Origin: Hysterium pulicare CBS 123377
Taxonomy: Eukaryota; Ascomycota; Dothideomycetes; Hysteriales; Hysteriaceae
Assembly (NCBI GenBank): GCA_000467715.1
Contig: AJFK01000297.1
Coordinates: 1 to 21,873, forward strand
DNA length: 21,873 nt
Direction: 5' to 3'
Numbering within the stretch: position 1 is the stretch's first letter; each line of letters begins with the position of its first letter. The translations under genes were made by a program, and so were the position numbers. Shown here one piece after another: positions 6,013 through 20,679 of the stretch. The notes beneath the pieces were generated by a model. That model worked only from the letters and a program-made list of their open reading frames with translations, made no database searches and was not told the DNA's origin.

Positions 6013-6462
6013 AGGATTCGATCGACTCGTGGTTCTGCTACTAAAAACCATTAGTAGATGTTAAAAGTGGACTCTGGAACGCTAGAGAAGGGGATAAGTT
6101 CGAAAGAAACCCAGCACTGACGAAGCCCTGATATCGCGAGAGGCGGGGGAGAGAAGCTGGGAATGGGTTAGGTAGATGGAGGATGATATGGGAAGGCAGG
6201 AAGTGGATTTCGCACCGTTGGGTAGTTGCGCAACAACTGCTGACGATGTTAGTGGTTTCAGACGATGAGGGAAGGAACGGCAGCAGGCTTACTAACTCTG
6301 AATTCGTCGTTGCTTTGATCATTGATTGTCTCATTGTGATTGTGGTCCAAGGACCTAGAGAAGGAAAACGGTGTTCAATTTGAGATGCTGCTTGTACAAG
6401 AACTAGCTACCAACAAACATAGTACCAAACGCCCACTCCCTGCCCCAACGCCCTTCTGGACA
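6013..6462. other. Downstream flank of the LINE, no gene seen
   Basis: This lies 3' of the LINE stop codon in the element's orientation and probably includes its 3' UTR. I see no poly(A) tail (poly-T on the plus strand) and no clear simple-repeat tail, so the 3' boundary of the element cannot be fixed. Confidence 0.4.
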
Positions 6463-9400
6463 CTACAACACCGACAAATGCTTCCTCGACCAGTCGAAAT
6501 GTTCATTAGGAAAGTTCTGAAAGGCAAACCTCGTAGCAATCTCAGCGTGAGTAGTCAACAAGTTATCCCAATCATACGCAATTTCCCGACCAAGAGCCGC
6601 TCGCTCACGGGATAGAGCAGGGCAGCGTCGATACAGATGATACACGGTTTCGAAATGATTTCTCTCACATTTCCTGCAGAAACTACTTCGAATGCCCTGT
6701 TATAGAAGGGAAAATCAGTGCTTTGCAACCATGGTGGGGAGACAGTGGTTCTTACCTTAGCTTTCTTGCGGTAAAGATATTCTCGGAGGCCAATGTGACC
6801 ACTTCTTACCTGAAAGAGTAAACTGCTCAATGGGCGCTTCAAGCTCGTGTAAAACTTCAATCTGCTACCGCCCAAATCCTCTTCTAGGCTTGCCGGTAAG
6901 GGAATCCTAGGGTTCAGACGTCGAAGTGTTTGCATTTTACTGATTCGGTAGGCATTGAATTGGGACGACATTCTGTCCCTCGCCTTTTTAGTAGTGATAG
7001 CCCTGATAGCCAACTTCATTTTTGCGGGCTTGGATGCTCTAGACTGGCTAGTGCGCCCTCCTTGCACTTTCCTCTCTGCCATGTTTCTCAACTGATCTAC
7101 CATCTGATCGGTTGGATAATGTGTGGAAGGGTGAATTGCGCAGAGATCTCCTGGTACGCGACACAAACTTTTCCACTGCCCGCCTCGCGTTGACAATGGT
7201 TTTCCACACTTTAGTATCGCGTAGACTAGTATGTGTAGCCAAACTGATGCGATCCATGAAAGTTTCTAGACTTTCAAAATCCAGTTCTTTTCGAAGGATT
7301 GGGATTGGGGTTTGCTGAAACGCTCCCGCGATGAGTCGGAGGAAGTCGTTTTGTCGCGACTTAAGCTTTTTGATCATAGAGGAAGAACTGGAGGAATGGT
7401 GTGGCACATACTGGGGGTCGGGCGTAAAGTCATCCATAGAACAATCCATGAAATCATTTGAAGGGATATGCCATGCAGCACAAGCGGCGATCATCGACGG
7501 CCGATACTTTGTCTTATAGAGGCGCAAAGCATCTTTCAGAGAAATGCCCCACGTCGTCCCAACAAGCCTGCGCAAATCGGCGAGATGGTTCGTAGCTTTC
7601 TTGCTGATGTAGTCGTAGTGGGCGTCCCATTTAAGTTGACCATCTCGGCCAGCCTCGATGAAAACACCCAATATCTTGAGCTTCGAAACTTCGTATTCAT
7701 CATTGAAACCGGAGATGTAATGAGACAAAGGTAAGCCCCCGCCCCGTTGACCTTGGGAGCAGAAATGGATAACCTTGTACTTCTCCATTGAGAACGACGC
7801 ACAAGCCCTGTGCGCCTATTCCAAACAACGTTTATGTTCCCTGGCAAGTAATTTTTTGTTTTGATCAAGCGTGTCGGAGACGGCGATAATGTAGGTATCG
7901 TCAGAATAGCCCATCTTGAAAATCAGACCGTCTTCATGGGCATCTTCGAGCGAGTCAGGGAGACCCGACGCAGATGGATCATCCTCGTTGGGTGATTCAT
8001 GGAGATCTGATGCAGATTGTTGACTATCGTTGGATGAGTTAAGGAGATCCGACGCAAAGAAATTAAACAATATTGGCGAGAGTGGACTGCCTAAGGGGAT
8101 TCCGGTACAACGTACATCGAACTCTGTATGCCCGGGGATTTCAACCGTTGATAACCGATCACTAAGAAAAGATTTGATTAAATCGATCATCCATCACGGC
8201 GGAGAAGGACCCTAAAGAGTTCGTCAGAATTCACGCGATTGAACGCCCCCAACATATCAAGGCTCAATATGCTGACAACCTTTCCAGAACTCGTAGCCGC
8301 TTGGATGATGACAAGGATATAGAGAATTGCGGTAATAGTTGAGCGGCCTCTTAATGATATTTGTGTTTTTGGGAGGAGATTGTGCGTGACAGCCAGTTCC
8401 GAAATGCGGCGCGCCAAGATCGAATCCAACATTTTTCCCGTAGAAGGGAGCAGTAAAATCAGCCTCCATCTCCCGAGCTAGCTATATGATTGTCCCTCAG
8501 CTAACGGTTTGCGAAGGGCAATTGTTTTAACGTTCTTGAACACGGCTGGATAGCATGGATGCTCCAAACAAGCGGTAAATAGATGAGCAAGATAGGGCTC
8601 CAAGATTGATTGGCATATCAAGAGACATGGAGGACCGATGCCGTCGTCACTTAGAGCTTTCCTTTCTTTCAGCATTTTGAAAGTTGTGATGAGTTCTACC
8701 TGATTAAGCATCTGGGGCGAGAAGAGCTCCATGGACATTTCGTGAGAAGTCTTTAGAGGGGTGTTACAAATGGAACAATTGGGAGCGGCACACGGGTTGA
8801 CTTGCGGCCACCATTGTTTCACAAGCCCGTTGACTTTCTCTTTGCCTGTGGATAGCGTGTCTTGGTTGTCAATCAAATCTGGCATATGGGGCGGAGTCCT
8901 TGGCTTGCCCCGTTTTGTGGACCATTTCGACAATGCGTAAATGGCTAAATCTAGAGTGAAGAAAGAAGCCCTCCAGACTTTCCGGAACTCCGTTTTCTGC
9001 AGCTTGTTTAGTCTCTCCTGGAGTTTGGTCCAGTCAGCCTGTTTGCACATGGTAGGCCCGAAAATCGTGGCTTTGAGCTCGGGATCATCATCACCAAACT
9101 CGAACATCAAACATTCTTTCACCGCTTCGCCAAGAGTATCATTGAACTCTTTACAAGCTTTGTTCACGGCAGTCTTCAACTGCCTGAATGCAGGTATCAC
9201 AATGCTGAATCGAGCTTTCGGGGGCCGTGGCTGGAGGTCAGGGACGTCGGTAGCAATACTGGATGATAGTTGATTTACCAACTCCGTTGCCCAAATGTTG
9301 GTTTCGGCTTTATTCTTGAGGGTTGGAAAGCCAATCTTTTGGAGCAAACGCTGGACATGTCCTGAAAACACCTCCTTGTCGACAAGCTTCCACGCCCGCC

Positions 9401-10200
9401 TGGTCGCGCATTGTGTATCCATGCCTAGCATTAAGATAATTTCAATAGGTGTATGGTTATTATGTGCTTGCATAATATTGTCTAAGATCTTGTATGAAGC
9501 AACAGAGTCGTAAAGGTCCTTACTGATCCAGGTGAGGTCAATGGTAGAGTGTCGAATGGTAGAACCATATTTACGGCGAAACGTGCTGATGCCGGCGACA
9601 TTAAGAAGATCTAAGGTGTGGCTGAAAGCGTTGTACAGTTTGACGGCTTTTCTATTATTCTTTCTCACGGGCCTGGCTCCCCAGGCACTGTGATGGAGGT
9701 TGAAATCCCCCGCGATAACATGCACTCCTTGATTCTGGAGAACGGAGGTTAGGCAGTTGACTGGTAGTCTCGCGTGCTAATTGTAAAGATTCGTGACGTA
9801 GAGGAAGGTTGTATTAAGGAATTTGAACCTAACAGTATTAATATGTCGTTTGTGCTCTGTAACCAGGTCAGAGAAGTTGCAGTTTATAGGAATTGCGCGA
9901 TATGTCTTAATGGGGATGGCTTGCGAGACATACACGCACAGTGACTTCGAATCTTCGGAGTCGGGGGCCGGGTAGCACCAAATAAGTTTGTATCCGGTGG
10001 AGGAAAGCATGGGGGTATGTAGGCAAGGCTCTTGTAGTAGGATAACATCCCATTTGTGTTTGGTCCTGGCCAGACAGTATGTGCCTTTAATAGCGTCTGC
10101 TTCCGTTCAAGTTCGCGTGCAAGATCTTGAAAGCTACTGGTTGCACTGCTTCGGACATTGGGCTGTATTGTTGCTGATGATGTGCCGGCAGAAGCGGATA
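6463..10200 (-). pseudogene. LINE ORF2-type polyprotein (EN-RT), disabled
   Basis: Endonuclease motifs: WDVILLQEP (catalytic Glu), AGDFNLHHSAWG and TIDLTWIS; the usual Ser-Asp-His motif reads NNHTPI (9453-9461), so the catalytic Asp is missing. Reverse transcriptase motifs: LLPSTGKMLDSILARRI, GRSTITA, SILSLDMLGAF (first Asp), GIPLGSPLSPILF and GYSDDTYIIA (the Asp-Asp pair). Then come KYKVIHF, LKILGVFI, LRLIAGAF and LFQVRSGHIGLREYLYRKK. The tail is C-x2-C-x4-H-F-E-T-V-x-H-x5-CP. In-frame TAG codons lie at 9779-9777, 8480-8478 and 7818-7816, with family-consistent protein on both sides in the same frame. Frame changes occur near 10110, at about 8190 and at about 7160. One further frame change, near 6755, is explained by a 59-bp intron. 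The protein cannot be made in one piece, so this copy is not autonomous. Confidence 0.92.
6697..6755 (-). other. Candidate spliceosomal intron inside the LINE ORF
   Basis: Reading the minus strand, exon codon AAG is followed by donor GTAAGA at 6755. A CTGAT branch-like motif, a pyrimidine-rich run and acceptor AACAG ending at 6697 follow, total 59 bp, the same size class as the introns in the intact genes of this window. Removing it joins EYLYRKKAK to GIRSSFCRKCERNHF in frame and produces the expected Cys/His tail with normal spacing. Without removal the frame reaches a stop at 6555 and the tail is lost. Splicing itself is inferred. Confidence 0.7.
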
Positions 10201-10246
10201 TTTTTGGTAGGTTAGTGACAGTCTCCCAACAGCAAGCTGTCCCAAA

Positions 10247-10570
10247 CATACCTACGGACGCTGAATTGAAAGATTGGAGTGAAAAGAACTGGCGAAGAGG
10301 GTGATTGCCAAAGTTGTGAGCTGTAGACTGGGATCCCGGGGCGAGAAGAGCTGGTGGGAGAGGTATGTGTTGGAGCTGTGAGCGATGAATTGAATGACTG
10401 AAGCGAATAAGTGGCAACGAAGATGAAAGCCAAAACTGTGAACGATAGATTGGATGCGCACGGTAAATAGAGCTTGTAATGGAAATAAGAGGTAAAGCTG
10501 TAAGCCGTAGAGTGGATGTCCAAAGTAAGAGAAGCTGGCGATGGAGGGGAGTGTCAAAGTTATGATTTCG
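10247..10570. repeat. About five degenerate 62-bp tandem repeats
   Basis: Anchors of the form CAAAG-x-TGTGAG recur at about 10309, 10371, 10431, 10493 and 10555, spaced 62, 60, 62 and 62 bp. Each is followed by a GAT-x-GA-x-TGGA-like segment and then a purine-rich GAAGCTGG-like segment. A further weaker unit begins near 10247. Units differ by substitutions and small indels. The array lies directly upstream of the LINE endonuclease in the element's orientation and is bounded by the TATA-like run on its far side. Confidence 0.75.
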
Positions 10571-10584
10571 TGGACCTTCAGACT

Positions 10585-10592
10585 GCTTTATA
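10585..10592 (-). promoter_or_regulatory. TATA-like motif upstream of the LINE repeat array
   Basis: On the minus strand the sequence reads CATATATAAAGCAG just upstream of the tandem repeats, in the right orientation to drive transcription through the repeats into the LINE. LINE promoters are usually internal and TATA-less, so this may belong to the flank or be chance. Confidence 0.25.
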
Positions 10593-12326
10593 TATGTTGG
10601 GAGGCGCTATGTTTGTAGCGAACATGTAAAATTTCACAAATGAGCTTGTATTGCGGAGTCGGATTCTCGGCGCTCCCGAATGTGACAGAATAAAGGAGGG
10701 GAGGAGGGGTGGAGGGGGAAATAACTAAAAGTTCCACTTTCTACTTTCAGCACCTTCCTGACCGCACAATGAACGACGTCTTCCCGTCAACAATAGACCC
10801 CGCTCCAGCAGAGCAAGACTTACTCTTGACAACTTCTCTCCTGAATTCTACTAAAACGGCCTTGACTTTAACATCAACGATGCCGGAAAAGGGCTGCACA
10901 AATCATTCTTAAGCCTTTTGGCTGGATTGTGCAACAACCTCGCACCAATCATACAGCCTGTCAAGATGTTGTACATCCGTAAAGTTGTTGAGCGAGCGTG
11001 CTAGGGGGTCCGTCGTCGACCATTTTGGCAGACAAAGTCGACAACCTTTGTACGCTTTCCTCGGCGGACCAAGTCCAGAGTTCTAATGAAATCTGTCTCG
11101 TCTCACTTTGTGGACTCGAAGCATCATTTTGGTTGAAAAAAGTAGGTACATGCCGGATCCGTTTTACTTGATGTCCGCCTCCAGCCGTTGTTCCTCCCGC
11201 TCTCTTCTCTGAGTCTTCTCTACCAATTGTCATCGTGTTGAATGAATGGTCTTGCCTACCAACAACCTGTTAATACTTAATACATTTCGTTGCACTTATT
11301 CTTATTTGATGTATATGCACTTCTTTTTCCAAACTTCAAATTATCTCTTATATGCTTTTATTCTCATTTCAAAGTATAATACAAATGCTGAGGCGAACAA
11401 GTATTCGTTGTCTATAGCACTACAATAGCACCGACAAAGGCTTTCTAAAGCAAATGTATTCTTCCTACCATCCGCCTAGATGAAGTAGGCAGTAATGCAC
11501 TGTTCAAAATCTCTAGCAAAGTTCCAACACGGCCACATTTGGTTGGGCGTCTTTCACACGCTCATACTTTGTATCTTCCCGTCCTCGATCTAACGGCCAA
11601 GTTCTTTTCTTTCCGTGCGATTGTCTATCTCGTTAAACCCCGGCCGCATCTTAATTCAAGCTGATTGATAAGTCTTCTCATTTAGAATCCCGGAGAATGT
11701 CCGCCTATTCCCCTCTACGCATATTGGCTATACTCATTGTTGCGATTTCAGATCCTAGTTAACGGGCATTCCGAAGAGATGAGATTTGAGCTCGCGGTTT
11801 CTAGGCTCCAAGAGCTGTAACAACGTTGTAGGCTACGGATGCGAAGTGACATCATCTAAACCCTCCTCCATCCGAATCCTTACGACGAAAAGGTGCCGCT
11901 TTGCCCCTGCTGCTTCACCGCCGATTCATATGACGTATCAGCTTTCCCGGAAAGATTGTGATGTCCCACTTACCGGTGAAACCTACGTCAGTAGTTCAAG
12001 GGGGAATTACGAAATGTACTTTCCCGAGCCCGTAAGGACAAACGCTAAAGAAATGGAGTGGATAAGGCTTGAGTACTCACACTGCTATACAGCGTATACA
12101 TTATTGAATCTTTTTCTTGCAGCGACTCTAAGCCGTTGGGGGGAGAGAGCTGATATATTTGTGAAAATGGTTTCAGGAATGTTGGTACGACAGAAGCGAT
12201 GCTGCATAAAAGGCGAGACGAAAAGACCTTGGGAGGCCTTTGTGCTAGAACGATATGGATGCTGCGGCAGAACATGATAGGAGCATGCGTAGGGCCGTAT
12301 AAACGCTCCGATCATAGTGATCCTAC
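10593..12326. other. Gene-poor stretch with weak ORFs and an AT-rich core
   Basis: I see no supported gene. A plus frame at 10709-10912 (67 aa), a minus frame at 11233-10961 (90 aa, starts MTIGREDSEKR, basic and Ser/Gln-rich) and a plus frame at 11786-12277 (163 aa) lack motifs and splice signals. The minus frame is the most protein-like, but an overlapping frame in the same stretch looks equally plausible. Positions 11270-11450 are strongly AT-rich with no coding character, as in RIP-affected or intergenic fungal DNA. The end of this stretch presumably holds the 3' flank of the oxidoreductase gene. Confidence 0.4.
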
Positions 12327-19565: not shown

Positions 19566-20679
19566 CTAAGTCTTTCCTATCAAATGCTGGTTTACAGGAG
19601 TCAGTGCTTGGCCCTTCAACAAAAAATTCTCAATATTCTCCATCGCAAGGCTTTCAAACCCGCTAGCTGTATCCCACGCTCCACCTGCATTATGGCAGGT
19701 CAGGGTGACGTTTCTCATTTTGCAGAACTCCGGGTGCACATGTGGTTCGTTCTCGTGCACATCTAGCCCTGCCGCAAATAAATGCCCCGAATTCAGGGCC
19801 TCTACCAGGGCATCTTCATCCACAAGAGCACCCCGAGCAATGTTGACAAATCGAGAACCTTTTTTGAATTTCGAGAGTCTTTCGGCATTGATCAACTTCT
19901 CGCCGAAGAACGGTGTCGCCAGCACAACGCAGTCGGACCCGCCAAGTAAGTCGTTCATATTGTCAACATAGGTCGCTTTCACAGCTTCTTCCTGCTCCTT
20001 GCTTTTTTGAACTATATCATAGTAGTACACGTTCATGCCGAATCCGAGCCAAGCCTTTTGGGCAATCGTGTACCCAATATTACCGAGCCCAATGATGCCT
20101 AGGTTTCGGCCTCGCGGATTATACGCAGTATCTTGTTGATGTGCGTGAGCATCCTTGAACTGCTCTACATCGCCTGATCTGGCAGCAAGATGAGACCATG
20201 TCAAGTTGCGGAAGACGGAGAGAATGTGAAAAATAGCCATGTCCGCGACGGCTTCCGAAGATGCTCTAGCGCCATTACAATATATGATACCTGCAGAACC
20301 GTTAGGATCATTTTGTCAGGCTTTGTTTTGCAACACGATGTTCCGTTCTGTACTTCATACCGTATTTTGACAGAGTAGGTATATCCGCCCAATCATATCC
20401 AGCTCCAGCACTTGCGAAGATCTTGACGGATTGCGGAAGCAAGGGAACCAATTCGCTATCCCATCTCCCCATTTCACCCCCAGATATCCAAAATGGTCGG
20501 AAGATGGCATCAAAGTCACCCCATTTCTTGTCTTTCAACGCCTGCATGAATGCAGAACGCTGCCGTTCCTTAGGCGAGGGCTGGATGATGGTGAATTCAG
20601 AGCAGAACCTTTTGTATACATCCGGATTGAATTTTATATTGTCTCCGATGTGCAAGACAACTGGCTTGCGGGTAGACAT
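19566..20679 (-). CDS. NAD(P)-dependent D-2-hydroxyacid dehydrogenase
   Basis: Two exons on the minus strand (20679-20361 and 20290-19566) joined across a 70-bp intron with donor GTATGA, branch-like CCTAAC and acceptor TGCAG, giving 347 residues, the normal family length. The N-terminal substrate-binding half contains VKIFASAGAGYDWADI. The nucleotide-binding half contains LGIIGLGNIG (Gly174, Gly176, Gly179), with YYYDIV ending in an acidic residue after the second strand, which favours NAD over NADP. Catalytic residues are Arg259 in NIARGALVDE, Glu288 in GLDVHENEP and His306 in CHNAGG. The family reduces 2-keto acids such as glyoxylate, hydroxypyruvate or related compounds to D-2-hydroxy acids. 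The exact substrate is unknown. It is probably cytosolic, as no clear targeting signal is seen. The ATG has A at -3. Confidence 0.95.

Follow-up and report, generated by a model that had tools for sequence, protein, structure and literature searches.

A probable U2-type spliceosomal intron in a decayed APE-type LINE of Hysterium pulicare

A retroelement that multiplies through an RNA copy is expected to carry no introns, and to our knowledge intron-bearing retroelements are known chiefly among Penelope-like elements. Homing endonuclease genes of group I introns spread as DNA, so spliceosomal introns in them pose no such paradox. In an excerpt of PMC3846280, Pen5 of Adineta vaga is described as a divergent, transcribed copy that has two stops and a frameshift and whose ORF holds a spliceosomal intron, and an excerpt of PMC9548176 describes spliceosomal introns that interrupt, in some fungi and protists, the homing endonuclease genes within nuclear group I introns. 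Among the literature matches listed, which took in few subscription journals, no title or abstract opening described a fungal LINE with a spliceosomal intron, and the word ‘intron’ does not occur in PMC3783388. If true, splicing within the frame of a LINE would point to the gain of an intron by a sequence that its life cycle makes intron-free at the start.

The window analyzed here is the whole stretch of 21,873 bp, one complete contig of the Hysterium pulicare CBS 123377 genome, which was searched in full (37.2 Mb, 596 contigs). By its short introns and gene content the genome would be placed with the filamentous ascomycetes; a 5.8S rRNA query matched nothing in it. The window carries a LINE that runs from about 10158 down to 6463 on the minus strand, with an endonuclease followed by a reverse transcriptase, a region without a Pfam match and a Cys/His tail. 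The order of endonuclease (PF14529) and reverse transcriptase (PF00078) is that of an APE-type LINE. The parts of the element, all on the minus strand, are as follows.

10099..10158, minus strand: likely ORF2 start, ATG at 10158, MSEAVQPVAFKILHANLN (from the translation), which we take to resemble LINE endonuclease starts
9780..10106, minus strand: earlier endonuclease part (from translation and position; alone without a Pfam match), with what are presumably endonuclease motifs
8481..9776, minus strand: later APE-type endonuclease part and linker to the reverse transcriptase (PF14529, E 1.1e-10, 41.8 bits, above cut-off)
8199..8477, minus strand: reverse transcriptase, first part (PF00078, 33.1 and 35.3 bits, above cut-off)
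7819..8193, minus strand: reverse transcriptase, second part (PF00078, E 3.3e-5, 24.1 bits, under the cut-off of 29.6)
7048..7815, minus strand: what we take to be the post-RT region of ORF2 (open frame; no Pfam match)
6756..7091, minus strand: coding piece upstream of the putative intron, ending SGHIGLREYLYRKKAK, with SGHIGL starting at 6803 (open frame; the frame containing it had no Pfam match)
6697..6755, minus strand: intron-like segment, 59 bp (splice signals; 21.8 bits on the host splice model)
6463..6696, minus strand: last coding piece, with the Cys/His tail CRKCERNHFETVYHLYRRC at 6678-6622 (77 open codons, then TAG at 6465-6463; no Pfam match)

We assume the Cys/His tail, and the tail spacing expected of it, to be LINE features; a PDB search with the tail gave three weak matches (E 0.29 to 2) that were judged unrelated. 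Among the repeats of at least 14 bp listed, one pair has the LINE between its two members, which lie at 6150-6166 and 10528-10544 and match imperfectly (88%); it may be due to chance. Upstream of ORF2, at 10190-10660 of the window, a degenerate tandem array with a unit of about 62 bp was observed (autocorrelation 0.40 at lag 62), together with a 25-nt repeat, 80% alike, at a spacing of 124; the units may be monomers of a 5′ leader that belongs to the LINE. Elsewhere in the window, positions 19566-20315 (minus strand) hold a host-gene exon for a D-2-hydroxyacid dehydrogenase, whose best PDB match was D-mandelate dehydrogenase 2w2k (E 3.2e-56).

On the minus strand, the segment 6755-6697 reads GTAAGA...CACTGATTTTCCCTTCTATAACAG. 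The sequence-only reading had placed a 59-bp intron here, and its coordinates and strand proved right: the GTAAGA donor lies at 6755-6750, the AACAG acceptor ends at 6697, and a branch-like CTGAT motif (within CACTGAT) occupies 6718-6714, its A (6715) lying 18 nt upstream of the final base of the segment. The pyrimidine tract that it named was also present, at 0.74 pyrimidine over 19 nt versus a mean of 0.53 in 56 host introns. The upstream frame runs to SGHIGLREYLYRKKAK at the edge of the segment, and the downstream frame opens with GIRSSFCRKCERNHFETVYHLYRRC and extends to the TAG at 6465-6463. When the 59 bp were removed, the two joined in frame between K and G (YLYRKKAK + GIRSSFCRKC), as had been proposed. 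When they were retained, the upstream frame continued without a stop inside the 59 bp and was shifted to an unrelated end (...ITC*). The segment has the host-like GT donor, the branch motif and the AG acceptor of a U2-type intron, and its removal restores the frame; it is best read as probably a U2-type spliceosomal intron, one that was likely spliced.

For comparison with host splice signals, intron candidates were drawn from two sources, 209 kb of other sequence of this genome and those parts of the window that flank the LINE. Strict matching gave 147 candidates, of which 105 were left without overlaps and 56 had at least 150 open codons and a length of up to 82 bp. Donor, branch and acceptor matrices were built from these 56 motif-picked introns with a length range set at 42-90 bp and then at up to 82 bp, and the length match of the 59-bp segment says little, because the range was set beforehand. 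The segment scored 21.8 bits (training median, 20.8), higher than 64% of the 56 introns, a rank that is partly circular because the training introns were chosen by their donor, branch and acceptor motifs. Its GTAAGA was the second commonest of the 105 motif-picked host donors (8, vs. 15 for GTAAGT). Motif-free intron finding in the host yielded 46 clusters and no consensus.

The alternative that survives best is coincidence, in which the 59 bp are coding, as a linker of about 20 residues, and one small indel beside the tail shifted the frame; we consider this unlikely. Frame fit alone is weak support for an intron. When the 89-bp interval containing the break was shuffled 5000 times, a frame-restoring GT-AG pair of any score arose in 3213 shuffles, and the real interval has four, so the ease with which such pairs arise speaks for coincidence. 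The same can be said of the upstream frame, which is open through the 59 bp, and of the hexamer score, which is undecided: the 59 bp (-0.137) were not separated from the tail exon (-0.145), with host introns at -0.357 +/- 0.295 and flanking exons at -0.013 +/- 0.192 as references. A good decoy also exists in the endonuclease frame, where a 77-bp intron-like pair at 9933-9857 (minus strand) scored 21.5 bits and an overlapping pair 20.9 bits. This pair is probably a chance decoy, and it could matter as a cryptic splice site.

Against coincidence stands the position of the signal, since the best of the 547 sense-strand GT-AG pairs of 42-90 bp in 10700-6300 is the 59-bp segment, which falls at the tail break and in the right frame. 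On the antisense strand, none of 871 pairs reached 21.8 bits (best, 18.9). In whole-length shuffles (n = 60), pairs as good averaged 0.017, and the shuffled 89-bp interval contained one in 1 of the 5000 cases. Real host frames are a better control than shuffles, and here too pairs as good were rare, with 0 of 4844 where the frames had 400 codons or more, 2 of 9353 with a minimum of 250 and 6 of 16838 with a minimum of 150. Over all host stretches and both strands, 45 of 78,617 pairs were as good, a count that may include real introns. Coincidence would further need an indel confined to about 25 bases before the Cys/His motif, because a stop closes the tail frame immediately upstream of the acceptor.

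The sequence-only reading had also argued that no such break occurs in the other conserved domains. That argument fails, because six other breaks were found: three in-frame TAG codons (9779-9777, 8480-8478 and 7818-7816, minus strand) and three frame changes (within 10098-10062, 8231-8173 and 7242-6951, these being intervals between chosen anchors). The LINE copy is dead, unless assembly errors produced several of these breaks, and three other frame changes in the same dead copy are a further point for coincidence. Each of the six breaks was checked for a frame-restoring GT-AG pair with an intron of at least 35 bp inside the interval between anchors. Four of them had none, a weak comparison because their intervals of 37-60 bp hardly fit an intron. 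The TAG at 7818-7816 had two such pairs, the best at -1.0 bits, and the frame change within 7242-6951 had 72, the best at 9.1 bits. A host-like frame-restoring pair was thus present at the tail break only, among seven LINE breaks, four of them in these short intervals.

The extent of decay was estimated from the stops. Single substitutions that yield a stop made up 4.18% over 3540 bases, and three nonsense changes correspond to about 2% neutral change (0.4-6%). At about 2% decay, the probability that 12 key intron bases would be untouched is about 0.78 (0.49-0.95); therefore, an intron that once functioned might show no damage today. RIP was rejected as the cause of decay, the indices of the LINE being host-like (TA/AT 0.67 vs. 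0.70; composite -0.62 vs. -0.55). All three in-frame stops of the LINE are TAG, as is one (4124-4122) inside the neighboring frame 4532-3225 on the minus strand. No sign that TAG is a sense codon was found in 209 kb of the host genome: frames of at least 200, 300, 400 and 500 codons numbered 75, 32, 17 and 12 with all stops active, 117, 43, 21 and 13 without TAG as a stop, 105, 42, 21 and 13 without TAA, and 205, 75, 27 and 15 without TGA.

A comparison with other copies of the element had been suggested by the sequence-only reading. When the 37.2-Mb genome was searched with the DNA of 6450-7265 (816 bp) and with proteins of 432 aa and 189 aa, no other copy was found, in a search that scored the best candidates of a draft assembly, from which collapsed or diverged copies could escape. 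A single copy in the genome fits an intron gain that was not spread by retrotransposition. Three candidates from the Pfam search were set aside. The first, on contig C128, is another degenerate LINE in which no tail was seen and which by eye is RNase H-like; the second, on C305, is an endonuclease fragment; and the third, on C376, reads by eye as telomerase. The C128 element (36500-43079, locus L011) is the remnant of a LINE distinct from the first, its endonuclease and RT pieces being spread over several frames, and it adjoins a frame that looks cupin-like by eye. Protein scans of viral_contigs and genome_contigs revealed no LINE relatives elsewhere, and no related tail against which the 59 bp would stand out as an insertion; this counts against the intron reading. 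A degenerate tail pattern matched one locus in viral_contigs, rejected since its frames look phage-like by eye. An introner-like origin, which the sequence-only reading had raised, found no backing, as a DNA search of the 37.2-Mb genome with the 59 bp and its flanks detected no relative at E up to 10, and two stretches of the segment (27 and 29 bases) had no second match in the genome with up to 3 mismatches. Introner-like elements are marked by numerous near-identical introns spread over other genes, and no such family was seen in these searches.

Taken together, these results make it likely that the 59 bp were at some time a spliced intron, and a gain by the LINE copy holds the larger part of that likelihood. 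The favored account is that of a host-type U2 intron in a degenerate APE-type LINE, acquired in place or inherited as DNA while the element was still coding, and we judge it somewhat more probable than all else combined. The intron would lie 77 codons before the stop of ORF2, and its removal from a sense transcript would put the Cys/His tail in frame. On this account the copy would have been coding when the intron arrived and would later have died by point and frame mutations, with no descendants found in the genome. The splice signals, the frame fit, the lack of a second copy in the genome searched and the death of the copy were observed directly, and from them we infer the time and the route of the gain as well as splicing. 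A gain after insertion is the simplest route, because retrotransposition of the spliced mRNA would yield a new copy with the intron gone. In a lone dead copy the meaning is more modest, namely that a retrotransposon probably gained an intron before it decayed; if common to several copies, such an intron would show that a LINE was copied from unspliced RNA.

The last possibility leads to a second alternative, that a LINE lineage carries the intron and copies itself via RNA that was left unspliced or kept the intron, perhaps with two protein products, of which one has the Cys/His tail and the other lacks it. It is doubtful. The signals are well kept despite the decay of the copy, retention leads to an open alternative end and not to an immediate stop, and intron-bearing retroelements do exist among Penelope-like elements, according to the excerpt of PMC3846280. 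However, no second intron-bearing copy was found in the genome, and Penelope elements are a different class. The more specific version, that the lineage kept the intron through rounds of retrotransposition by way of intron-retained RNA and that retention decides whether ORF2 has its Cys/His tail, appears slightly more doubtful still. A non-intron insertion of 59 bp into an already dead copy, merely resembling an intron, would agree with the death of the copy, but the splice signals and the frame would have to arise by chance and no direct repeat of at least 14 bp overlaps the 59 bp; we rate it as highly improbable. Least probable of all is the insertion of an introner-like element, for although Pezizomycotina, to which we assign the host, are named as an introner-bearing group in an excerpt of PMC9860276, it is made unlikely by the lack of any relative of the 59 bp in 37.2 Mb and by the description, in an excerpt of PMC4457414, of fungal introner-like elements as long, with regular introns of 50-55 bp.

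Compared with described systems, the locus resembles Pen5, a Penelope-like element, in being a decayed retroelement copy with an intron in its ORF. Penelope elements have a GIY-YIG endonuclease, whereas the LINE here matches PF14529, and the Pfam scan of the LINE pieces, taken to E 1, listed no GIY-YIG family, which argues against a Penelope-like element. Homing endonuclease genes share with it a mobile-element frame with spliceosomal introns, but they are not retrotransposons. Fungal introner-like elements create spliceosomal introns, are multi-copy and are long, whereas the candidate here is 59 bp and had no relative in the genome searched. Fungal Tad-like LINEs, such as LINE-Tad-RtPc5 of Paracoccidioides, likewise have an endonuclease and then an RT in ORF2. 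RtPc5 has an RNase H and a 572-aa ORF1, as given in an excerpt of PMC4427930; the LINE here, in contrast, had no RNase H match by Pfam, and no ORF1 was noticed in the translations up to 10700. The short U2-type introns of the host have the same GTAAG-type donor, CTRAY branch and YAG acceptor as the 59 bp, but they sit in host genes, whereas the candidate sits in a retrotransposon frame.
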